Positions 8,965-41,090 of a DNA stretch of 64,000 nucleotides are shown here, one piece after another. The stretch comes from Candidatus Zymogenaceae bacterium. GTDB taxonomy: Bacteria > Desulfobacterota > Zymogenia > Zymogenales > Zymogenaceae. A program made the translations under genes and the position numbers. Positions within the stretch are counted from its first letter, which is position 1. Every line of letters starts with the position of its first letter. Under the pieces are notes generated by a model. That model did no database searches, was not told where the DNA came from, and saw only the letters and a list, made by a program, of their open reading frames with translations. The stretch is taken from positions 1-64,000 of the forward strand of contig JAFGFE010000039.1 in NCBI GenBank assembly GCA_016931225.1, in the 5' to 3' direction.

Positions 8965-11811
8965 CTAACACTTTGAGTAGCCGCAGGCCTGGCAGCTGAT
9001 ACAGCCGCTCTCGTGAAACAGGGTCGCGCCGCAATCGGGGCATGTGCTGACTCTCACCTCGGGCGCCTCATCCGACGGCCCCTCGACCATCTCCGGGTGG
9101 CGATTGTCTTCGATATAGAGCTTGAGCGCCGCTGCGATGGCGTCGGTACAGGAGAGTATCTGCGACCCGTTCTGCCAGATCGGGTTGGGGCAGCGGATGC
9201 CCGAGAGCTGTTTGATGACGGTCTCCACGGGAATGCCCGACCTGAGCGCCAGGGAGATCAAGCGCCCGGTGGTCTCGTTCTGGGACGATGAGCACCCCCC
9301 GGCCTTGCCCATTTGGGCGAAGACCTCGAACAGACCGTGCTCATCGGCGTTTATGGTCACGTAGAGTTCGCCGCAGCCGGTTTTCATCTTCCGGGTGGTC
9401 CCCCAGGTGACGTCCGCCCGGGGGCGGGGGATGGGCGTGGAGACGGCATTGACCGGGATCTCTTCTTCCGCGACGGCGGCGTCCGGAGCATCTGTCCGGT
9501 TCACCGTGCCGATGTTGAGGACCTGGGCGTCCCTGCTCTGATCCCGATAGACCGTCACCCCCTTGCATCCCAGATCGAAGGCCAGGCGATAGACCTCCGC
9601 GATGTCCTGAGGGGTTGCGTCCTTGGGGAAATTCACGGTTTTTGACACCGCGTTGTCGGTATGTTTCTGGAAGGCGGCCTGCATCTTGATGTGCCATTCG
9701 GGGGAGATGTCGTGGGCGGTGACGAAGACCTCCTTCACCCTATCGGGCACATGCTCCAGGTCTTTTATATCTCCCTGCCGGGCGATGGCCGACATCAGCT
9801 CATCGGAAAAGAAACCGTCCTCTTTCGCCCGCTCGCAGAAGAGGTGATTGACCTCCACCAGCTCGTCGTCGTCCATGACGTTTTTGATAAAGGAGAGGGC
9901 GAACAGCGGCTCGATCCCAGAGCTGGTGCCCGTGATCATGCTGATGGTCCCGGTGGGGGCGATGGTCGTTGTGGTGGCGTTTCGCATCATCGGATAGCCG
10001 TCCCGCTCCCAGGTGCTTCCGTAGAAGTTCGGAAACGATCCGCGCTCCATGGCAAGCTTCATGGAGGCCTCTTTGGACCGCTGCTGGATGAATGACATCA
10101 CGTCCTCGGCGGTCTCCAGGGCGAGGTTCGAGTTGTAGGGAATGTCCATCTTGATGAGCATCTCGGCGAATCCCATCACGCCGAGGCCGATTTTCCGATT
10201 GGCCCGCGTCATCTCCTCGATCTGGAGAAGCGGGTAGCTGTTGGCGTCGATAACGTTGTCGAGAAAATGGACCGCGCTGTCCACCGTGGCCCCCAGCCGC
10301 TCAAAGTCTATCGAGCCTGTATCCGTCACCATCCGGGCCAGGTTGATCGATCCGAGATTGCACGATTCATACGGCAGGAGCGGCTGCTCGCCGCAGGGAT
10401 TGGTCGATTCGATATCCCCCACGTGGGACGTCGGATTGTCCCGGTTGATGCGATCCAGGAACACAATGCCCGGCTCACCGTTTTGCCAGGCCCTCTCGAC
10501 GATTCTGTCGAAAATATCCCGGGCGGAAAGCTCATCGACCGTCTCATTGGAGCGGGGGGAGACGAGAGGGTAGGTGTGATCGTTTTTGACCGCATCCATG
10601 AAGTCCTCGGTGACGGCCACGGAGATGTTGAAATTGTTGAGCTTGGTGGTGTCTTCCTTGCAGTCGATGAAATCCGTAATATCCGGGTGATCCACCTTGA
10701 GGATGCCCATGTTCGCGCCCCGGCGGGTACCCCCCTGCTTGATGGTCTCGGTGGCGGCGTCGAACACGGTCATAAACGAGATCGGCCCGCTCGAGACGCC
10801 CTTGGTGCTTTTGACGCGGTCGTTCTTCGGTCGGAGGCGGGAAAAAGAAAAGCCGGTGCCGCCGCCGCTTTTGTGGATAAGGGCGGTGTGCTTGACCGCC
10901 TCGAAGATGCTGTTCATGGAGTCCTCCACCGGCAGCACGAAACAGGCGGAGAGCTGCTGGAGCTCCCGCCCGGCGTTCATCAGGGTGGGGGAGTTGGGGA
11001 GAAAATCCCGCTGGGCCATGAGCAGGTAAAATTGCCGGGTCACATCGTCAATGTCGATATCCGGTGTGTAGGAGCGGTCCACCCCTGCGATGTTGCGGGC
11101 GACCCGGAAGAACATCTCTTTCGGCGTCTCGACGGCGTTACCGTCGTCGTCCTTTTTCAGGTATCGGCGCTCAAGCACCGTCATGGCGTTGTCTTCCAGG
11201 ACCGGTTCGGGGAGGGACTCAAAAAGCTCCGCCGTGTCCTCTTCGTCTGGTGCCTCGTTTTCCGCCGGGGCCTCATCGTTTCCCGCGTGCGGATGCTTTT
11301 CATATGAGATATCGATGATATCGTGGGATAGATTCATCGACACCACGGCGTCGTGCAGGTCGCTGGATTCAAAGAAAGAGTCTTCGAAGAAGGCGTCTTC
11401 ATCCGGGACGTCACCCGTGGGCGGGTCCGCCCTCCACCCCTCTGCATGGAGCAGGTTCACGTGCATCTGCTCGATGTTCCGATATTCCCGTTGTTCTTCT
11501 TTTTCAATCAGGGCGAGGATTTCCTCCTCGGTTTCTTTCAAGGGCTCTGCGGCCGTCTCACAAACCTCGTCCTCGGAGATCTCAATGGTGTCGGGTTCAT
11601 CTGCGGTGTTCGATGCGGTTTCGACCTTGTCTCCGGCTTCGGCATCCGTCTCCCGTTCGACATCGGGTGCGGCGGAAGGGTCCTCATGTTCTGTAGGAGG
11701 AGAGGAGTCGGAATGCTGCAGGGGGATATTCAGGTCGGGAAAGAGTGTCTGTGTGCGGGGTTGGTTGATGGATGCGTCGGATTTTGTCGATAAATCCTTT
11801 GCGATGCTCAT
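8965..11811 (-). CDS. nrdJ: adenosylcobalamin-dependent (class II) ribonucleotide reductase
   Basis: 948 residues. Reduces ribonucleotides to deoxyribonucleotides using B12, so it works with or without oxygen. The core starts near residue 203 (ALERR-like MTVLERRYLKKDDDGN). The redox Cys pair is Cys290 (LSACF) and Cys484 (ESCNLGSINL). The catalytic NPCGE is Asn471-Cys473-Glu475. The C-terminus has a TSCPD-like domain and a zinc-ribbon tail, CPDCG...CISCQACG. Odd: about 200 acidic, low-complexity residues precede the core, which many class II enzymes (about 740 residues) lack. Ribosome site GGGAGG before the ATG. The promoter carries an NrdR box. Confidence 0.95.
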   Translation of the reverse strand: MSIAKDLSTKSDASINQPRTQTLFPDLNIPLQHSDSSPPTEHEDPSAAPDVERETDAEAGDKVETASNTADEPDTIEISEDEVCETAAEPLKETEEEILALIEKEEQREYRNIEQMHVNLLHAEGWRADPPTGDVPDEDAFFEDSFFESSDLHDAVVSMNLSHDIIDISYEKHPHAGNDEAPAENEAPDEEDTAELFESLPEPVLEDNAMTVLERRYLKKDDDGNAVETPKEMFFRVARNIAGVDRSYTPDIDIDDVTRQFYLLMAQRDFLPNSPTLMNAGRELQQLSACFVLPVEDSMNSIFEAVKHTALIHKSGGGTGFSFSRLRPKNDRVKSTKGVSSGPISFMTVFDAATETIKQGGTRRGANMGILKVDHPDITDFIDCKEDTTKLNNFNISVAVTEDFMDAVKNDHTYPLVSPRSNETVDELSARDIFDRIVERAWQNGEPGIVFLDRINRDNPTSHVGDIESTNPCGEQPLLPYESCNLGSINLARMVTDTGSIDFERLGATVDSAVHFLDNVIDANSYPLLQIEEMTRANRKIGLGVMGFAEMLIKMDIPYNSNLALETAEDVMSFIQQRSKEASMKLAMERGSFPNFYGSTWERDGYPMMRNATTTTIAPTGTISMITGTSSGIEPLFALSFIKNVMDDDELVEVNHLFCERAKEDGFFSDELMSAIARQGDIKDLEHVPDRVKEVFVTAHDISPEWHIKMQAAFQKHTDNAVSKTVNFPKDATPQDIAEVYRLAFDLGCKGVTVYRDQSRDAQVLNIGTVNRTDAPDAAVAEEEIPVNAVSTPIPRPRADVTWGTTRKMKTGCGELYVTINADEHGLFEVFAQMGKAGGCSSSQNETTGRLISLALRSGIPVETVIKQLSGIRCPNPIWQNGSQILSCTDAIAAALKLYIEDNRHPEMVEGPSDEAPEVRVSTCPDCGATLFHESGCISCQACGYSKC

Positions 11812-11885
11812 AATACCTCCCTGTGAGCTCTTTACACGAATGAAAAAGCCGAAAACGATTGATAGATTATGTATGGTGGATATGA

Positions 11886-11901
11886 TACCGTTATTTTGTA
11901 C
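11886..11901 (-). promoter_or_regulatory. possible second, weaker NrdR box
   Basis: A 16-base site with about 8 of 16 matches to the NrdR consensus ACACTATATATTGTGT. It is placed exactly 31 bases (three helical turns) from the strong box, the spacing at which NrdR box pairs are usually found. Weak by itself; the spacing is the main support. Confidence 0.35.
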
Positions 11902-11908
11902 CGTATGA

Positions 11909-11937
11909 ATGATATAGTACTATATGTTGTGTGTCAA
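11909..11937 (-). promoter_or_regulatory. sigma-70-type promoter of nrdJ
   Basis: On the minus strand TTGACA (11932-11937), a 17-base spacer and TATCAT (11909-11914) form a near-consensus promoter about 100 bases ahead of nrdJ. The strong NrdR box fills the spacer. Confidence 0.65.
11917..11932 (+). promoter_or_regulatory. NrdR box in the nrdJ promoter
   Basis: GTACTATATGTTGTGT matches the NrdR box consensus ACACTATATATTGTGT at 13 of 16 positions. It lies between the -35 and -10 boxes of the nrdJ promoter, where a bound ATP/dATP-sensing NrdR repressor would block RNA polymerase. nrdR itself is not in the window. Confidence 0.65.
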
Positions 11938-12195
11938 GAGAAAATTAGAAATATTTATTTATATACAAAGCAAATGAGGGAAAAAGAGGGGGAATTTCTA
12001 TAAAATTGAAGGGGATGGACTAACGTTGAGTAAAAAACTCAACAAATAATGAGTAAAAATAGGATATAAAGATTTATTACTATTTATAGTAAAAGAAACA
12101 ACCGTTTCATTTTTTACTTGACAATCTGACGACCTCTGTAATACGGTGTAAGATATCAGGGCGTTCGTTTCATCGTTGTTTTTCGGAGGTTATGC

Positions 12196-12402
12196 ATGCT
12201 TCGCAGGATATCGGTACCGCTTGTGGTTTGCGCGCTCCTGTTATGTACCTGTTTTTTATTCGGGTGCGCCAGCAATTACAAGTGCTATCCGTCCGGCTAT
12301 AAGTGTTATCGCACTTATCGAATACATCCGGACGGCACAACCTATTCCACCGGATATCAGTGCTACCCCAGCAAGATGAAATGCTACCGGGTTGGTCGAT
12401 AG
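12196..12402 (+). CDS. small Cys/Tyr-rich lipoprotein with CYP repeats
   Basis: 68 residues. A signal peptide ends in a lipobox, LFGC (Cys at about 24). The short mature part is almost all repeats: YKCYPSGYKCYRTYR and YQCYPSKMKCYRVGR, two copies of an x-C-Y-P-S-x-x-K-C-Y unit separated by IHPDGTTYST. The spacing of four cysteines suggests disulfides or metal binding in the periplasm or on the outer membrane. The ribosome site GGAGG lies just before the ATG. The next gene, 138 bases on, encodes a related exported protein. I do not recognise a family. Confidence 0.7.
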   Translation: MLRRISVPLVVCALLLCTCFLFGCASNYKCYPSGYKCYRTYRIHPDGTTYSTGYQCYPSKMKCYRVGR

Positions 12403-12540
12403 CGGTATGACGGAAAGGCTCGTATCCCGATAATCGACGCCTTTTTGCATGGTGCGGCGATGTACACTGCCGGATACCGCTCCGTACGGCAGGTATTGTG
12501 CGATTTCTGTCTCTTTTCGTGAGTCGAATACGGAGGGAAT

Positions 12541-12858
12541 ATGAAGAAACGTTCATTGGTCATCGTATTGGCGCTGACCTGCGGCATACTCGCGGGATGG
12601 GCGCTGTCCGCACCGGGGGCGGATTACTATATCACGCCCGGATGCCCCCCTCCGGGGTACACGTCCGCATACCCGTGTCCGGACTGCGACGATGATCTGG
12701 TCTATGACCGCTATGACGACACCGAATACGTTCCCTATTACGAGTGTTATCCCACCTACCGGCGGGTGTACCACAGCTATGAATGCTATCCGCCCGTGTA
12801 CGAGGACTATCCGCCCTACGAGTGTTATCCCAAGGGATATATCCTCAAAACCAAATGA
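12541..12858 (+). CDS. exported Tyr/Cys/Pro-rich protein with YECYP repeats
   Basis: 105 residues. A signal peptide (about 1-26, ending SAPGA) is followed by a compact mature chain with CPDC near residue 50 and three YECYP motifs (PYYECYPTY, SYECYPPVY, PYECYPKGY). The CYP core is shared with the lipoprotein encoded just upstream, so the pair look like diverged duplicates. Acidic and basic residues alternate with tyrosines; there is no hydrophobic core other than the signal. GGAGGGA precedes the ATG by a few bases. Possible roles are envelope cross-linking or metal or redox binding, all speculative. Confidence 0.7.
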   Translation: MKKRSLVIVLALTCGILAGWALSAPGADYYITPGCPPPGYTSAYPCPDCDDDLVYDRYDDTEYVPYYECYPTYRRVYHSYECYPPVYEDYPPYECYPKGYILKTK

Positions 12859-13223
12859 TCAGAACGCCGGCGATTGGGGGAGGGAGAGAGGGGGAGATGG
12901 GTGATGGAGTGATGAGACCATCGGAGGGATAAGCGTCCTGTGAATACGGGGCGTGGGGGATGTTCCGGGAAATGTGTTGACGGCGTCCACAGCCGAAGGG
13001 AGGTCGTCGCGGGACGAATCGATCGGCGCCTTCACATATAACGAGCGGCGATATTCGTGGTATCCCGAACGGGTTTTTTGGGGGGGGCGAAAAAAAAGGG
13101 CCGTCGGGATGCTGTCTGAAGATGGCGCCGCGACGTGCGAGATTAAAAAAGGCCTTCGGCCTTTTTCGGTATATATGAATAATAACTATGTAAAAGCAAC
13201 CACCACCGGGAGCACAGGGTACC
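12859..13223. other. intergenic region with purine-rich stretch and a terminator
   Basis: About 365 bases. The first 60 are purine-rich (runs of G with A). A strong hairpin with T-run is listed separately near the end. No gene or RNA recognised. Confidence 0.5.
13145..13166 (+). terminator. intrinsic terminator (bidirectional)
   Basis: AAAAAGGCC (13146-13154), loop TTC, GGCCTTTTT (13158-13166). The T-run ends transcripts from the CYP-repeat genes, 290 bases upstream. The A-run makes it symmetric. Confidence 0.8.
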
Positions 13224-13835
13224 ATGGGAGATACAAAGACTAAAGTGGGATTGATCGGATTCACGGAACGTCTGCTTGAGAAATTTTTATGGAATTTTCG
13301 CGTCATCATACTGCTGGGCGTACTGGGGCTTCTCATCGGATCCCTGGTGATTTTCATCATGGGCATCATCGAGACGTACCATCTCACCAATATGTTCATA
13401 ACGCATATCATACACCACGGCACCCATATCGACGAAAACCTGTATAACACCATCATCATCCAGATCATTACCACCGTGGACGACTTTCTCCTCGGGATCG
13501 TGCTCTTGATCTTCGGGCTGGGCACCTATGATCTCTTTATCTCCCGGATCAATCCCGCGGAAGTACAGGACGATATTCGGCCCAACTGGCTCGTATTCGA
13601 ATCCCTCGACGAATTGAAGAGCGTCCTGGGGAAGGTGGTGCTGATGATTTTGATCATCAATTTCCTGAAAATTGTGGTGAACACGAGTTTTGAGGAGCCG
13701 ATTCACCTGTTGTATCTCGGCGGCGGCATCGCCCTGGCGGCGGTGGCCCTCAAGTGGTCCCATACCGAGAAGGACATCGACCGCACCACCATGCAGGAGC
13801 GCCTCAAGCGGCTCATGGAGTCCGGATCGGAGTAG
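13224..13835 (+). CDS. YqhA family (UPF0114) inner-membrane protein
   Basis: 203 residues with four membrane helices (about 27-50, 83-105, 138-155 and 165-180). LLIFGLGTYDLFISRINP in the middle is the family signature of YqhA/UPF0114 proteins, whose function is unknown. The C-terminus is charged and cytoplasmic (HTEKDIDRTTMQERLKRLM). It is a single gene after a terminator, with no ribosome site stronger than GGGAG before the start. Confidence 0.82.
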   Translation: MGDTKTKVGLIGFTERLLEKFLWNFRVIILLGVLGLLIGSLVIFIMGIIETYHLTNMFITHIIHHGTHIDENLYNTIIIQIITTVDDFLLGIVLLIFGLGTYDLFISRINPAEVQDDIRPNWLVFESLDELKSVLGKVVLMILIINFLKIVVNTSFEEPIHLLYLGGGIALAAVALKWSHTEKDIDRTTMQERLKRLMESGSE

Positions 13836-14075
13836 CGATACACACATTGATGAATCTATACAGCGGCGGGGGACACCGATACGTTTCCCGCCGTTTTCGT
13901 GCCACATGCCGCGATGTTGCTGTGTGTCCATGTGTGCTTTCCGTCTCGGCACGGTCTTTCTGGAACATTTCCCACAAAATGGAGACTAATAAATACGGGC
14001 GGGGACGATATACACGCGAAAAATGAAGAATCCATGAAACATGGAGAGAAAAGCGTCACATGTTTCATAATCTTG

Positions 14076-14103
14076 TTGACACTGAAAACATAAATAGTAT
14101 AAA
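14076..14103 (+). promoter_or_regulatory. promoter of the tol-pal operon
   Basis: TTGACA (14076-14081), a 16-base spacer, then TATAAA (14098-14103). A start near 14110 would give a leader of about 35 bases before the tolQ start, with the palindrome at 14111-14129 in it. Confidence 0.55.
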
Positions 14104-14110
14104 ATAGCGC

Positions 14111-14129
14111 ATAAATTAACTTAATTTAT
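14111..14129. repeat. perfect AT palindrome at the tol transcription start
   Basis: ATAAATTAACTTAATTTAT: nine-base arms about a single centre base. It lies at or just after the expected start of transcription, a usual operator position. It could also be a leader hairpin over the tolQ start, but is all A/T in its arms. Confidence 0.5.
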
Positions 14130-14145
14130 ATGTAAAAATAAAACA

Positions 14146-14919
14146 TTGACATTTTTCGACAGCATCCGGGACGTTTTTTTGAGCGGCCCTGTGGAATTAA
14201 GCGCCCTCGAGACCATCTCCCAGGCCGGACCGGTGGTAAAGGGGGTACTGTTTATTCTCCTTGTCTTTTCGGTGGTGTCCTGGGGTATAATGTTTAATAA
14301 GTTCGCGGTCATACGGGCCGCCCGGGCGCAGTCAAAAAAGTTTTTGAGTATTTTCTGGACGAATCCTCGGTTGTCCCTCCTCTATGAGGAGGCGCGAAAG
14401 CTCCCCAAAAGCCCCCTGGCCCAGGTCTTTCGCGGCGGATATCAGGAGTTCAACCGAATGATCTCCACGGCCCGATCGGTCCGCGGCATCTCCCGGATGG
14501 CGGGGGTGTCCGATGAAGGGGACGCCGGGAGTCTGGGAACGGAGCTGTTCGGCGTTGAGAGCATCGAGCGGGTGCTGCGCCGCAACATCATGGAAGAGGT
14601 GACCAGGCTGGAGAGCAATCTGACGTTTCTGGCCACTACCGGCAGCACCTGTCCCTTTATCGGGCTGTTTGGCACCGTCTGGGGGATCATGAACGCCTTC
14701 AAGGGCATCGGGGTGAAGAGCTCCGCCAGCATCGCCGTCGTGTCGGCGGGCATCTCGGAAGCCCTCATCGCCACGGCGGTGGGGCTGTTCGCGGCGATCC
14801 CGGCGGTCGTGGCGTATAACTATTTCATCAGCAAAATCAAGGTGCTGACCACCGAGATGGATAATTTCTCCTTTGAATATCTCAACATCGTGGAGCGGCA
14901 CCTCAAGCGAATGCGATAG
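14146..14919 (+). CDS. tolQ: TolQ/ExbB-type proton channel protein
   Basis: 257 residues. Three membrane helices: about 31-52 (VLFILLVFSVVSWGIMF), about 160-182 (TGSTCPFIGLFGTVWGIMNAF) and about 195-225. The second carries the family motif for the MotA/TolQ/ExbB channel that, with TolR, uses the proton gradient to energise TolA. Start is uncertain: TTG at 14146 has no visible ribosome site, and a TTG at 14176 (before SGPVEL) is an alternative. A loop of about 60 residues with GDAGSLGTELFG between helices 1 and 2 is as in the family. First gene of the tol operon. Confidence 0.9.
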   Translation: MTFFDSIRDVFLSGPVELSALETISQAGPVVKGVLFILLVFSVVSWGIMFNKFAVIRAARAQSKKFLSIFWTNPRLSLLYEEARKLPKSPLAQVFRGGYQEFNRMISTARSVRGISRMAGVSDEGDAGSLGTELFGVESIERVLRRNIMEEVTRLESNLTFLATTGSTCPFIGLFGTVWGIMNAFKGIGVKSSASIAVVSAGISEALIATAVGLFAAIPAVVAYNYFISKIKVLTTEMDNFSFEYLNIVERHLKRMR

Positions 14920-35225: not shown

Positions 35226-36197
35226 TCACTCGTCTTCGAGCCTGGTGGCGCCGGACCAGCGGACGTCGCCGGACCAGTTCTCCTTGGCGATCGAGGCGAG
35301 CTTTTCCATGGTTTCCTTTTTGATGAGCGGTGCGTCGCACAACTTATAGCTGCTGTCAAGCCGCTGGTACTTGTCGACACACAGGTTGTTGAAGGCCAGA
35401 AGCTCATAGCGCACGACGGCGGGCATCTTCTCGGCGATGAACCGGGCGACGGCGCGCACGTTCTCTTCCTGGTCCGTCCATCCGGGAATGATGGGCGTTC
35501 GCACCCACATGGGGATGTCTCCCGAGCCGAAGAGTTCGGCATTCCTGAGGATGTGGGCAAGGCCCACACCGGTCGCCTTTTTGTGCATCTCCTCGTCCAT
35601 CTGCTTGAGGTCGTACAGGATCAAATCCGTATGGGGGAGAATCGGATCGTAGGCCTTTTCGGCAAAGGCGCCGGTGGTGTCGATGGCGGTCGATATCCCC
35701 GCCTCCTTGCACCGGGCCAGAAACCGGGATGCGAAATCGGGGAACATGCCCGGATCGCCCCCCCCGAGGGTCACCCCGCCGCCGGAGTTGCGGTAGAACG
35801 CCTCGTCCTTGTTGACTTCGAAGAAGAGCTCGTCCACCGTGTACTCCTTCCCGATGACCTCCAGCGCCGCCGCGGGACATGCTTCCTCGCATTTCCCGCA
35901 GGTGGTGCAGCGCTCCCGGTCGATGACCATCCCCTTCGGCGTCAGCGAGAGGGCGCTTTCCGGGCAGGCCGTCAGGCAGTCCCGGGCGCCGATGCATCGG
36001 CTTTCATACCACATCAGCTCCGGTTTTTGCCTGATCCCCTCGGGATTGTGACACCAGAGGCAGGAGAGGGGACAGCCCTTGAAGAAGACCGTGGTGCGGA
36101 TGCCCGGGCCGTCCTCTGTGGAAAACCGTTGGATGTTGAAGATGACCGCCTTCGGCGCCTCGTTAGAGTTCTTTTGCAACGCGGGATATGATTTCAT
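35226..36197 (-). CDS. glycyl-radical enzyme activating protein (radical SAM)
   Basis: 323 residues. Radical SAM cluster motif CPLSCLWC (near residue 42) after QRFSTEDGPGIRTTVFFKG, then two ferredoxin-like clusters (CIGARDCLTACP, CTTCGKCEEACP) as in activases of PFL2-type enzymes. It makes the glycyl radical on a partner enzyme using SAM. Odd: the SAM-binding motif usually written SGGEP reads GGGDP here (VTLGGGDPGMFP). Overlaps the upstream enzyme gene by 35 bases, so its partner is very probably encoded there. Confidence 0.93.
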   Translation of the reverse strand: MKSYPALQKNSNEAPKAVIFNIQRFSTEDGPGIRTTVFFKGCPLSCLWCHNPEGIRQKPELMWYESRCIGARDCLTACPESALSLTPKGMVIDRERCTTCGKCEEACPAAALEVIGKEYTVDELFFEVNKDEAFYRNSGGGVTLGGGDPGMFPDFASRFLARCKEAGISTAIDTTGAFAEKAYDPILPHTDLILYDLKQMDEEMHKKATGVGLAHILRNAELFGSGDIPMWVRTPIIPGWTDQEENVRAVARFIAEKMPAVVRYELLAFNNLCVDKYQRLDSSYKLCDAPLIKKETMEKLASIAKENWSGDVRWSGATRLEDE

Positions 36198-38574
36198 TTT
36201 GCATCTCTCGTCCCAGGAAGGTGAAGTATGCGTTGTAGCCGGTGACCCGTACCATCAGATTTGCGTAGTCCTTCGGATTGTTCTGGGCGTCTTTGAGGGT
36301 TTCGGAATCGATGACGTTTATCTGGAGCGCGGTGCCCCCCTTTTCGTTGTATGTCCTCAGAAAGCTCATCAGCTTTTCGAGACGCTCGTTGTCCCGGATG
36401 AGGGAGGGGGAGAAGCTGATCGTGTGGGAGTCGCCGTTTGGGGCGCTTTCCAGGCCCAGTTTTCCCACGCTCATGGTGACCGCCGTCGGGCCCTGGGTGT
36501 CCGCGCCGTTGACCGGGCAGACCCCGTTGGAGAGGTACGAGCCCCTTTTTCTGCCGTCGGGCGTCGCCGCGGTGGAGGGTGAATAGGCCACCCAGTAGTT
36601 CCACGAGAGATAGCCGCCCCGGTAGCACCGTTTCGTGCCGGGAGAGACGTAGTCCCTCGATTTCTCGGTCCAGAAGCGGGAAATCTCCCGGGCGATGGAA
36701 TCGGCGTATTCGTCGTCGTTGCCGAACTTGGGCGCCTTGTTGATAAGGGTCTGGCGGAGCTTTTCATGCCCCTCGAAGTTGTCCTTGATGGCGCCGATCA
36801 GCTCGTCCATGGTGACCTTCCCTTCTTCAAAGACCAGCTTCTTCACGGCGACAAGGGAGTCTGCGGCGGTGGCCAGAGAGATGCCCTCTATGGTGATAAA
36901 GTTGTAACGGGCGCCGGCGTTGTTGACGTCCCGCCCCTTCTCGGCGCAGCCGTCCACCAGGTTTGAGAGGTACACCGTCGGCTCGTACGTGGATCTGAGT
37001 CGATCCGACATGTTGTAGATATCGATCATCAATTCCATGACGGCCAAAAGCTGTTTTTTGAACGCGGCCATGAATTGATCGAAGTTTTTGAATTTTCGGG
37101 GATTACCGGTTCTCGGGCCGATTCTCTCCTTTGTCAGCATGTCCACGCCGTTGTTGAGGGTCAGCTCCACCGCCTTGGCGATGTTCATGTTCACATCCAC
37201 CGTTCCGGAGCGGTCGTCGCCCTGCAGCGTGTTTTCAAGACACCCCACCGGGGCGTAGTCCCACAGGCGATCTTCGGGCAGACCCTGCCAGCGGAGGCCG
37301 CGGATGGAGTTTTCGTCGAAGTTGATGAGAAACGGAGAGCCCTGGGCGTTGGCCACCAGCTCGGAAATCCGCCTGAGCAGGTCGTCGGGGGTCTTGTTGT
37401 GTATGCGAATGTTCGGCTTCGGCTCCAGGAGGTTCATCTCCTCGATGACGTCGAGCATCAGCCAGGTCAGGTCGTTGGAGGCGTCCTCATAGTTTTCGTC
37501 GATTCCCCCCAGGGTGATCAATTGGCCGAATCCGGCGGTAATGCCCTGGTTTTCGCCGATGCGTCCCTGGAAGTCGTAGGCATAGTTATGCTTGATCCAG
37601 TAGCAGTCGAGTATCTCCCTGGCCTGATCCCTTGTGATGAGGCCTCCCTCGATGTCTTTCTTGTAATAGGGCCACAGGTACTGGTCGATGCGCCCCGGAG
37701 AGGTGCCGGCGGCCACGTAGGATTCGTCCGCCATGACCAGCATGTGGGTGAACCAGAGGGCCTGCACCGCCTCGTGGAAGGTCTCAGCGGGATTCGCCGG
37801 GACCTTCCTCATGATCCGGGCGATCTCGACGAGCTCCTGCTTCCTGATCGGGTCTTTTGCATCATTCGCCTGGCGCTCGGCTTCGTCGGCGTATCGATTG
37901 GCAAGAATGATCGGGGCCTCGGCGGCGATGATCATCGCCTCGAGATAGTCGATTTTCTCCTTATCCGTGGTCTCGGCGATCATGGCCTTGTATTCGTCGA
38001 TCAGGCCCTGAAAACCCTTGTGGATGACCTTCTTGTAATTGGGGATGATATGGCCGAATGTGGTCGATGAGTTCCCCACGCCCACATCGTTGATCCATTT
38101 CGCCTTTTTCCACCACTTGTCGTGGAGCTTTTTATATTTCTTGGCTTCCTTCTTGTTCAGGGACCGGGAAAGGGCCGTACTGAACTGGCCGCCCACAATC
38201 AGCTCGCCTTCCAGGATATGTACCGGCAGGTACTTTTCCAGCACCGTCCGGAAGAAGGTCGCCCGCCGTTTCGGGCGGGACCGGCTCCAGAAATCCTTAG
38301 GCAGGTCGTCTTCTTTCACGGTTTTCGCACAGGCCAGAAGGCTGTCCGAAAAACAGGGATTGAAGGGGTAGACCTCGGGAACCACGCCGAAGTTGTGGAA
38401 GGGGAACACCATGTCCCATTCCGTCCCGTTGGTAAAGGGCATAACCTCGTTCCTGAAATAGGGACGATCATTGAAGCTGAAGTATTCCTCCCGCAGTCTT
38501 CGAACTCGATCGGACAGGGTTCGGGAGGGTGACCAGATGTCCTTCGGAGTCACATGACATTGTGCCTGTGCCAT
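36163..38574 (-). CDS. glycyl-radical enzyme, PFL2/dehydratase-decarboxylase family (GRE1)
   Basis: 803 residues. Thiyl-radical loop APVGCLENTL (Cys445, Glu447) and glycyl-radical loop VRVTGYNAYFTFLG (Gly779) are intact. GRIDQYLWPYYKKDI and VPANPAETFHEAVQALW are general family marks. GCxE is found in diol dehydratases, trimethylamine-lyase-like and other C-X-cleaving members, so a dehydratase or lyase is more likely than a pyruvate formate-lyase. An N-terminal stretch with NRYFRNEVMPFTNGTEWDM-like sequence is unlike the second enzyme. AGGAGG precedes the ATG. Substrate unknown. Confidence 0.9.
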   Translation of the reverse strand: MAQAQCHVTPKDIWSPSRTLSDRVRRLREEYFSFNDRPYFRNEVMPFTNGTEWDMVFPFHNFGVVPEVYPFNPCFSDSLLACAKTVKEDDLPKDFWSRSRPKRRATFFRTVLEKYLPVHILEGELIVGGQFSTALSRSLNKKEAKKYKKLHDKWWKKAKWINDVGVGNSSTTFGHIIPNYKKVIHKGFQGLIDEYKAMIAETTDKEKIDYLEAMIIAAEAPIILANRYADEAERQANDAKDPIRKQELVEIARIMRKVPANPAETFHEAVQALWFTHMLVMADESYVAAGTSPGRIDQYLWPYYKKDIEGGLITRDQAREILDCYWIKHNYAYDFQGRIGENQGITAGFGQLITLGGIDENYEDASNDLTWLMLDVIEEMNLLEPKPNIRIHNKTPDDLLRRISELVANAQGSPFLINFDENSIRGLRWQGLPEDRLWDYAPVGCLENTLQGDDRSGTVDVNMNIAKAVELTLNNGVDMLTKERIGPRTGNPRKFKNFDQFMAAFKKQLLAVMELMIDIYNMSDRLRSTYEPTVYLSNLVDGCAEKGRDVNNAGARYNFITIEGISLATAADSLVAVKKLVFEEGKVTMDELIGAIKDNFEGHEKLRQTLINKAPKFGNDDEYADSIAREISRFWTEKSRDYVSPGTKRCYRGGYLSWNYWVAYSPSTAATPDGRKRGSYLSNGVCPVNGADTQGPTAVTMSVGKLGLESAPNGDSHTISFSPSLIRDNERLEKLMSFLRTYNEKGGTALQINVIDSETLKDAQNNPKDYANLMVRVTGYNAYFTFLGREMQNEIISRVAKEL

Positions 38575-38621
38575 TGTCTCCTCCTTTTCATGTAGTGTGT
38601 GTCACTGTTCCGTTTATCTTT

Positions 38622-38637
38622 GCGCGCGTCCGCGCGC
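38622..38637 (-). repeat. GC hairpin between the two glycyl-radical enzyme genes
   Basis: GCGCGC on each side of GTCC (38622-38627 with 38632-38637). In the direction of the operon there is no T-run after it, so it is more likely an mRNA-processing or stability hairpin than a terminator; the opposite strand does have a T-run. Confidence 0.5.
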
Positions 38638-38645
38638 TTTTTCAC

Positions 38646-41090
38646 CTACTGAACGCTTCCCCGGCCGGAAAAAGAGAGCCGGGTGCGATTGATGATCTCG
38701 TCCTTGACGATATCCGGAAGATCGTCGAAATAGGCGCAGTATCCGGCCACCCGGACCACCAGTCCCGGATACATGCCCGGATTGTTCCTGGCTTTGATAA
38801 GCTCCTCCGGATCCAGGATGTTGAACTGCACCTCCATACCCCCCTCCTCGAAGAATCCCCGAATGAGGGACGAGAGGAGCGACACCCCGTCGTCTCCCGA
38901 GACAACTCCCGGATCGAACCTGAGGTTGGTGGCGTAGCCGTTTGCGGCAAGTCTCGCGTCCACTCTCGCCACGGAGTTAAGCAGCGCCGTGGGGCCCAGG
39001 CGATCCATGCCGTTGGCGGCGCCGAGGCTGGCGGCGAACGACGTCCCCGCACTCCGCCCCGAGGGGGAGGCCCCGGTCTTTTCGCCGAAGGCGACGTGGG
39101 ACGTGGAGGAATAGAACCCGGCGACGTATCCCCCGCCCCGGACGTTCACGTATCGGGTCAACGCCGTATGATAGGTATGGGCCGCCAGGTCCGCGTAGCG
39201 GTCGGGAAGCTCGGTATCGTTTCCGAATTTCGGCGCGGAGAGGAGCCGCGCCCGGAGTGCATCGTTTCCCCTGAAGTTTCGCTTCAGGGCACGGACGACA
39301 TCGGTGAGGGCGGTGGTTTTTTCCGCAAATACCACCGCGTCCAGGGCCGCCAGGGCGTCGGCGGTATCGGCGATGCCCACCCCCTGTACGCCGCTGCCGT
39401 TGTAGATCGCCCCGCCCTCGGTCACATCCTGTCCGGAATCACTGCAGCCGTCCACCAGGAGGGACGAAAACGGGGTGGGGTGATAGTCCCGGTTTCCGGC
39501 GTCGATGATGGCGAGGTCGTCGACCATCCGCTCGACCATGAATTCGACCTGGGCCGTGAATGCACCGACAACATCATCCATGGATCGGAACGCCCTTGGG
39601 TCCGGCGTGTCCGCGCCCACCCGTTTCCTCTTCCCGAAACGTCTGCCCCGGTTCAGCGCCAGCTCCAGGCACAGGGGGAGGTTGAAGAGGGCGGTATCGG
39701 TGGAGAGGAAGCTCTTCCCCGGCACCGCCAGCTCCACGCAGCCCACAACGCCGTAGTCCCGTGCGTCCTCCAGGGGGTAGCCGTGGGCCAGAAGGGTTTC
39801 TATGGATATGTCGTCCGAAAAAAATGCGGGAACGCCGTTGCCCCGGCGGGCCACCTCCACCGCACGGTGGAGGTAGGGGAGGGGGGAGTCTTTGTGCATT
39901 CTCGCCTGGTAGTTCGGGTCCCTCAGGCCCGATTGTTCCATCACGTCCAGGAACAGCCAGGTCAGCTCGTTGACGGCGTCGTTCCCGGCCCGGTCCACTC
40001 CGCCCACAATGGCGGCCTGCACCACAAGGAAGCCTCCGTGATACTTGCTGACGGCCTGGGAGACGTGAAAGACGTGCTCGGTGCACTTGGCGGAAAAGCA
40101 GAGGATCAGCTCCCTGGCCTCATCCGGTGTGATGGTGCCCCGCTCTATGTCCCTCTTGTAGTAGGGATAGAGGAACTGGTCGATGCGGCCGAAGGAGACC
40201 GCGGAGTTGATTCCCTCCAGGCACACCGTCATGTGGGCCAGCCACAGGGCCTCTACCGCCTCGTGGAACGTCTCGGCGGGGTGCTCCGGCACCCGCCGGG
40301 TGATTCGGGCGATCTCCAGAAGTTCCCGCTTCCTGGTTTCGTCCTGTTCGGATGCTGCAAGGCGATCGGCCTCATCGGCCAGGTTGCGGGAAAAACTCAC
40401 CAGTCCCCGGCAGGCGATGCGGGCGGCCCGGGAGAAGGGGTCATCTCTTCCCTCCAGCTCGGCCAGGCACCCGGTCACCCCTTTCTTGATGATCTTTTCG
40501 TAGTTCGGGATGAAATGCCCGATGCCCGCCGCCACATTGATGAGGTAGTATGCCGGGCTGAGCTGCTCGGTGACGTAGCGTAAAAGCCTTTTGGGACGGC
40601 GGGTGAGGCCGCGGGCCTCTCTCGTCTCCCGCGTGGGAAGAAAGGCCCGGACGACCATGTTTCGAAAGAGCCAGTAGGGGATGATGCGGAAGATCAGTGT
40701 AAACCGATCCCTCCAGGATATCTGGAAAGGGGTGGTTTTTCTTCGGCCGATCCAGAGAATTTCCTGGTTGACGAAGACCCCGGACAGCTCGGGCTGGATG
40801 ATTGCGGATTTGCGGAACGCGCCCACATTGCCGACGATGAGCTCGTCCGGAAAGATTTTCGCCGATTTTTCACTCAGGATGTGGGCCAGGGCGCCGGCCT
40901 TCCTGACGATCATCGGCTCGGACGGCCGGTCATGATGCCGGAAGTAGTCGGTCACGAGATGCGCCCGTTCGATACACAGGTGTATGGGCGATGTGAGAAG
41001 GGCCTGTTTTATACGGGCGAACCGATCGGAGCGTTTTTGCTCCCCGTTTTCGTCTCGGTTCGAGTAAAAAGTTCGGGCCGGCTCGGTCAT
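38646..41090 (-). CDS. glycyl-radical enzyme, PFL2/dehydratase family (GRE2)
   Basis: 814 residues. Thiyl loop YGVVGCVELAVPG (Cys451, Glu453) and glycyl-radical loop VRVAGYCAYFDD (Gly783). A membrane-associated-looking hydrophobic part (RFTLIFRIIPYWLFRNMVVRA, near 130-150) sits in the N-terminal half. GCVE points to the dehydratase/C-X lyase branch as in glycerol dehydratase and CutC. First enzyme of a TetR-led operon; 113 bases after tetR. Only one activase is present, so it may serve both enzymes. Substrate unknown. Confidence 0.9.
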   Translation of the reverse strand: MTEPARTFYSNRDENGEQKRSDRFARIKQALLTSPIHLCIERAHLVTDYFRHHDRPSEPMIVRKAGALAHILSEKSAKIFPDELIVGNVGAFRKSAIIQPELSGVFVNQEILWIGRRKTTPFQISWRDRFTLIFRIIPYWLFRNMVVRAFLPTRETREARGLTRRPKRLLRYVTEQLSPAYYLINVAAGIGHFIPNYEKIIKKGVTGCLAELEGRDDPFSRAARIACRGLVSFSRNLADEADRLAASEQDETRKRELLEIARITRRVPEHPAETFHEAVEALWLAHMTVCLEGINSAVSFGRIDQFLYPYYKRDIERGTITPDEARELILCFSAKCTEHVFHVSQAVSKYHGGFLVVQAAIVGGVDRAGNDAVNELTWLFLDVMEQSGLRDPNYQARMHKDSPLPYLHRAVEVARRGNGVPAFFSDDISIETLLAHGYPLEDARDYGVVGCVELAVPGKSFLSTDTALFNLPLCLELALNRGRRFGKRKRVGADTPDPRAFRSMDDVVGAFTAQVEFMVERMVDDLAIIDAGNRDYHPTPFSSLLVDGCSDSGQDVTEGGAIYNGSGVQGVGIADTADALAALDAVVFAEKTTALTDVVRALKRNFRGNDALRARLLSAPKFGNDTELPDRYADLAAHTYHTALTRYVNVRGGGYVAGFYSSTSHVAFGEKTGASPSGRSAGTSFAASLGAANGMDRLGPTALLNSVARVDARLAANGYATNLRFDPGVVSGDDGVSLLSSLIRGFFEEGGMEVQFNILDPEELIKARNNPGMYPGLVVRVAGYCAYFDDLPDIVKDEIINRTRLSFSGRGSVQ

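Follow-up and report, generated by a model that had tools for sequence, protein, structure and literature searches.

The YXWGXW-repeat proteins of Gram-negative bacteria are small, exported repeat proteins rich in tyrosine and proline, and their function is mostly unknown. Two adjacent gene products, P1 and P2, encoded in the genome of a Candidatus Zymogenaceae bacterium within a stretch of 64,000 nucleotides that was analysed as a whole (the window), resemble them in being short, signal-bearing and Tyr/Pro-rich, with short tandem repeats. They differ in having no Pfam match and in carrying Cys at a fixed position of the repeat. P1 can also be compared with disulfide-linked beta-hairpin peptides of the tachyplesin/protegrin type, with which it has in common a basic chain, Cys-Tyr-Arg elements and closely placed Cys around a short turn. 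Unlike those peptides, P1 resembles a bacterial lipoprotein, shows no sequence match to them, and comes from a host genome in which no Dsb oxidases were detected.

A third likeness is offered by a low-complexity open frame with CYPRQ repeats in a Bacillota soil MAG (L048:5640-5689), which spans 146 residues with 11 CY[PR] motifs in CYPRQ-type units and is possibly a coat-like low-complexity protein. As in P1 and P2, many CY[PR] motifs are packed into a short protein, but its units are short and irregular, its linkers are different and no signal was seen, so that the similarity looks like one of composition only.

Two adjacent genes for exported proteins

The original prediction described two adjacent small exported proteins with a repeated xCYP core, and this is confirmed by the open reading frames and by motif counts above those of shuffled chains. 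P1 (12196..12402, forward strand) is a predicted lipoprotein of 68 residues (LFGC, Cys24), preceded on the same strand by a GGAGG Shine-Dalgarno sequence (12185..12189) 6 nt before the ATG. A possible promoter (12118..12147, forward strand; TTGACA, an 18-nt spacer and a weak TACGGT -10 box) is a weak regular-expression match that scores under the cut-off of the promoter scan. The N-terminus, assessed by inspection, has a positively charged start and a hydrophobic stretch followed by FLFGC with Cys24. The lipobox-like sequence fits at -1 (Gly) and -3 (Leu), while Phe at -2 fits the looser consensus only; as far as these residues indicate, a lipid probably anchors P1 in the envelope. P2 (12541..12858, forward strand) has 105 residues, its own GGAGG (12532..12536, forward strand) and, by inspection, a Sec-type signal peptide w/o lipobox, and is predicted to be Sec-exported.

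The predicted high content of Tyr and Cys holds for both mature chains (20% and 11% in P1, 23% and 7% in P2), whereas Pro is very high in P2 only (17%, against 6.7% in P1). Mature P1 is basic (net +7, pI 9.4) and mature P2 acidic (net -8, pI 4.2); in P2 the repeat region carries no net charge and the acidity comes from the rest of the chain. The motifs of P1 are YKCYP (C30), YKCYR (C37), YQCYP (C56) and KCYR (C63), and YECYP occurs in P2 three times (C69, C82, C95). When each mature chain was shuffled 200,000 times, the [KQE]CYP count of the real sequence was reached at a frequency of 2e-5 for P1 and never for P2; these figures call for caution, since the motif was chosen once it had been seen. 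Against codon usage learned from 18 genes of the window, the frame of P2 scores +34 bits and every other frame is negative. P1 comes out neutral at -2.6 bits, its frame still being the best of six.

A shared 13-residue repeat

Two features go beyond the first reading of the sequence, namely a 13-residue register common to both proteins and a CPDC motif in P2. In P1 and P2 alike, the C-terminal 39 residues divide into three units of 13 residues that keep a common register, Y-x-C-Y-P-x8, with Cys at fixed repeat positions. The units of P1 (12277..12393, forward strand) are YKCYPSGYKCYRT, YRIHPDGTTYSTG and YQCYPSKMKCYRV; units 1 and 3 each contain a Cx6C pair, and the middle unit, YRIHPDGTTYSTG, retains Y1 and P5 only. 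Those of P2 (12739..12855, forward strand) are YECYPTYRRVYHS, YECYPPVYEDYPP and YECYPKGYILKTK. An identical 16-nt stretch, TACGAGTGTTATCCCA, is common to units 1 and 3 of P2, and most unit copies have diverged in DNA (68-84%). Nothing in P1 corresponds to the first part of P2, where CPDC (Cys46, Cys49) precedes an acidic stretch.

The description of the two proteins as a pair is supported by an ungapped alignment of P1 with P2 over 31 residues, which scores 68, where shuffled sequences average 34 (p 0.0002). When YxCYP blocks were kept whole, the common spacing in P1 and P2 had a p value of 0.009. Autocorrelation alone is significant in P1 (period 26, p 0.003) and not significant in P2 (p 0.20). 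Taken together, the shared register, the gapless alignment and the spacing test make it very likely that the C-terminal parts of P1 and P2 are related.

Search for relatives

The absence of a recognisable domain, which had been claimed from the sequence, was borne out by family searches. P1 has no Pfam match and the best for P2 is 12.2 bits, under the cut-off of 27. Neither protein reaches a cut-off in NCBIfam (best for P1 7.8 bits, cut-off 42), and PHROG holds no matching family. A match of the repeat to a known small-protein family had been named as evidence against the prediction, and none was found in these three collections. Among PDB sequences nothing fell below E 0.09 for either protein, plasmid sequences gave no tblastn match, Rfam had no match over 11700-14300, and our search of the literature on the repeat motif or on Tyr/Cys-rich bacterial envelope proteins found nothing on point.

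Across 39 related genomes, a real protein match was present in the home genome only; the weak matches in the relatives were rejected as chance (a TPR protein, a ribosomal protein L13-like frame, multihaem-cytochrome-like N-termini and frames with stops). Two degenerate CYP-repeat patterns run over 395 genomes of the phylum found regular YxCYP repeats in the home genome alone, and the other matches, judged from the matched DNA, were short tandem DNA repeats or isolated matches. Scanning 85,000 species with a P1 peptide, with a reach of close relatives only, returned none. A pattern of two [K/Q/E]CYP motifs 13 residues apart, at that exact spacing only, had 17 matches in the same species set; these and three viral matches, once translated, proved to be stops, DNA repeat arrays, and low-complexity or two-motif ORFs. 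Viral collections contained nothing related to P1 or P2. A Lachnospiraceae MAG carries an array of 39-nt DNA repeats with KCYPGICVWRKNW per unit in one frame (L055:1-300 and L056:5400-5529), which is probably minisatellite-like and not a gene.

On these searches P1 and P2 look like an orphan, lineage-restricted pair. The suggestion of a new family was thus overstated, as no member was found beyond the two copies side by side.

Genomic neighbourhood

Upstream of P1 and divergent from it lies a gene (8965-11811, reverse strand; profile match) for a large-subunit-type ribonucleotide reductase that contains a TSCPD domain and that we take to be of the class II (B12-dependent) kind. In this reductase the conserved part is preceded by a long, acidic N-terminal extension of ~190 residues, into which the matches in relatives do not reach. 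Downstream of P2 is a UPF0114 (PF03350) membrane protein gene (13224..13835, forward strand; profile match), followed by tolQ and the rest of the tol-pal cluster (TolQ and OmpA-like by profile, the others by reading ORFs). No metal transporter or regulator was recognised adjoining P1 and P2.

In two genomes of the same family (G001 and G003) the reductase adjoins tolQ with ~0.7 kb between them, w/o P1, P2 or UPF0114. Most simply read, a segment of ~1.6-2 kb with these three genes was acquired in this lineage or else lost from the relatives, with few genomes to compare. The UPF0114 gene lies in the same lineage-restricted segment as P1 and P2; it has only a weak match, elsewhere in genome G002 (E 6e-4, 28% identity). 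Membership of P1 and P2 in the tol-pal operon was considered and rejected, because a TTGACA/TAAAAT promoter-like box directly before tolQ (regular-expression match) is kept in four of four genomes, and blastn matches take in the stretch with this box (14069-14135).

Possible roles of the cysteines

According to a published account (PMC11208910), bacteria normally form disulfides with DsbA plus either DsbB or VKOR. In the home genome (99% complete) there was no match to DsbA (PF01323), DsbB (PF02600) or VKOR (PF07884) with positive controls, a result that covers these three Pfam models only. A DsbD/CcdA-type membrane protein (DsbD_TM) is present. The exported Cys may therefore stay reduced. Glycyl-radical-like ORFs occur at 36163-41090 of the home contig, and together with the lack of matches to these three models they suggest that the host is an anaerobe. 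The original prediction saw in the Cys a spacing suited to disulfides or metal binding; the Cx6C pairs of P1 fit this, but the lack of DsbA, DsbB and VKOR weakens the disulfide part.

Our preferred explanation, which is a weak guess, is that P1 and P2 bind metal or other thiol-reactive ligands via reduced Cys. Both would derive from one duplicated 13-residue repeat and be exported via Sec, P1 probably staying attached to the envelope by a lipid anchor and P2 being either soluble or associated with the surface. We infer that metal ions or thiol-reactive ligands would be held by the reduced Cx6C pairs of P1 and by the CPDC motif and evenly spaced ECYP Cys of P2, tyrosines adding stacking or secondary ligands, and that the two proteins may bind each other via opposite charges. 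In favour of this reading, the genes are adjacent on the same strand with a GGAGG each, and the opposite pI values would allow mutual binding w/o demonstrating it. Against it, there are no homologues and so no conservation showing that the Cys matter, and no metal-binding family was matched in Pfam or NCBIfam. A bolder version is improbable: a newly evolved envelope system of two components, one a basic lipoprotein and the other its acidic exported partner, would be built from the same 13-residue unit throughout, pair through matching repeats and carry metal via tyrosine-flanked Cys.

Nearly as likely as metal binding, and still doubtful, is that P1 and P2 are young lineage-specific genes grown by short repeat duplication, with little or no selected function yet. 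The lack of relatives in the family, the phylum and the 85,000-species scans, the missing genes at the syntenic site in two relatives, the neutral codon usage of P1, the low-complexity composition and the identical 16-nt stretches within P2 all point this way. However, each gene has a good ribosome-binding site and an export signal, P2 has gene-like codon usage, and the units stay in register in both proteins though most copies have diverged in DNA.

Somewhat unlikely is a pair of disulfide-stapled proteins serving as an envelope structural or matrix component, in which two small beta-hairpins of P1 (turns PSG and PSK) are closed by C30-C37 and C56-C63, and the ECYP Cys of P2 form cross-links. 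In Cx6C the two Cys can face one another over a short turn, and the non-lipidated Cys of mature P1 are even in number (four). The single-sequence AlphaFold2 model of P1 has short strands at 28-31/36-39 and 54-57/62-65, a hint of hairpins at the Cx6C pairs, but its confidence is low (mean pLDDT 61, poor) and a PDB fold search with it found nothing similar; the equivalent model of P2 is also poor (mean pLDDT 46). The lack of DsbA, DsbB and VKOR matches again counts against stapling. That P1 and P2 are chance ORFs is very improbable, since the slightly negative coding score of P1 and the lack of homologues are outweighed by the score of P2, by signal peptides and GGAGG on both, and by repeats shared in the translated frame.

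Conclusion

For now P1 and P2 are an orphan curiosity. If they are made and functional, they would show on a small scale how new exported proteins can arise when a short unit is duplicated. A comparison would come built in, both between the two neighbouring, diverged copies and with the corresponding site in relatives, which has none.
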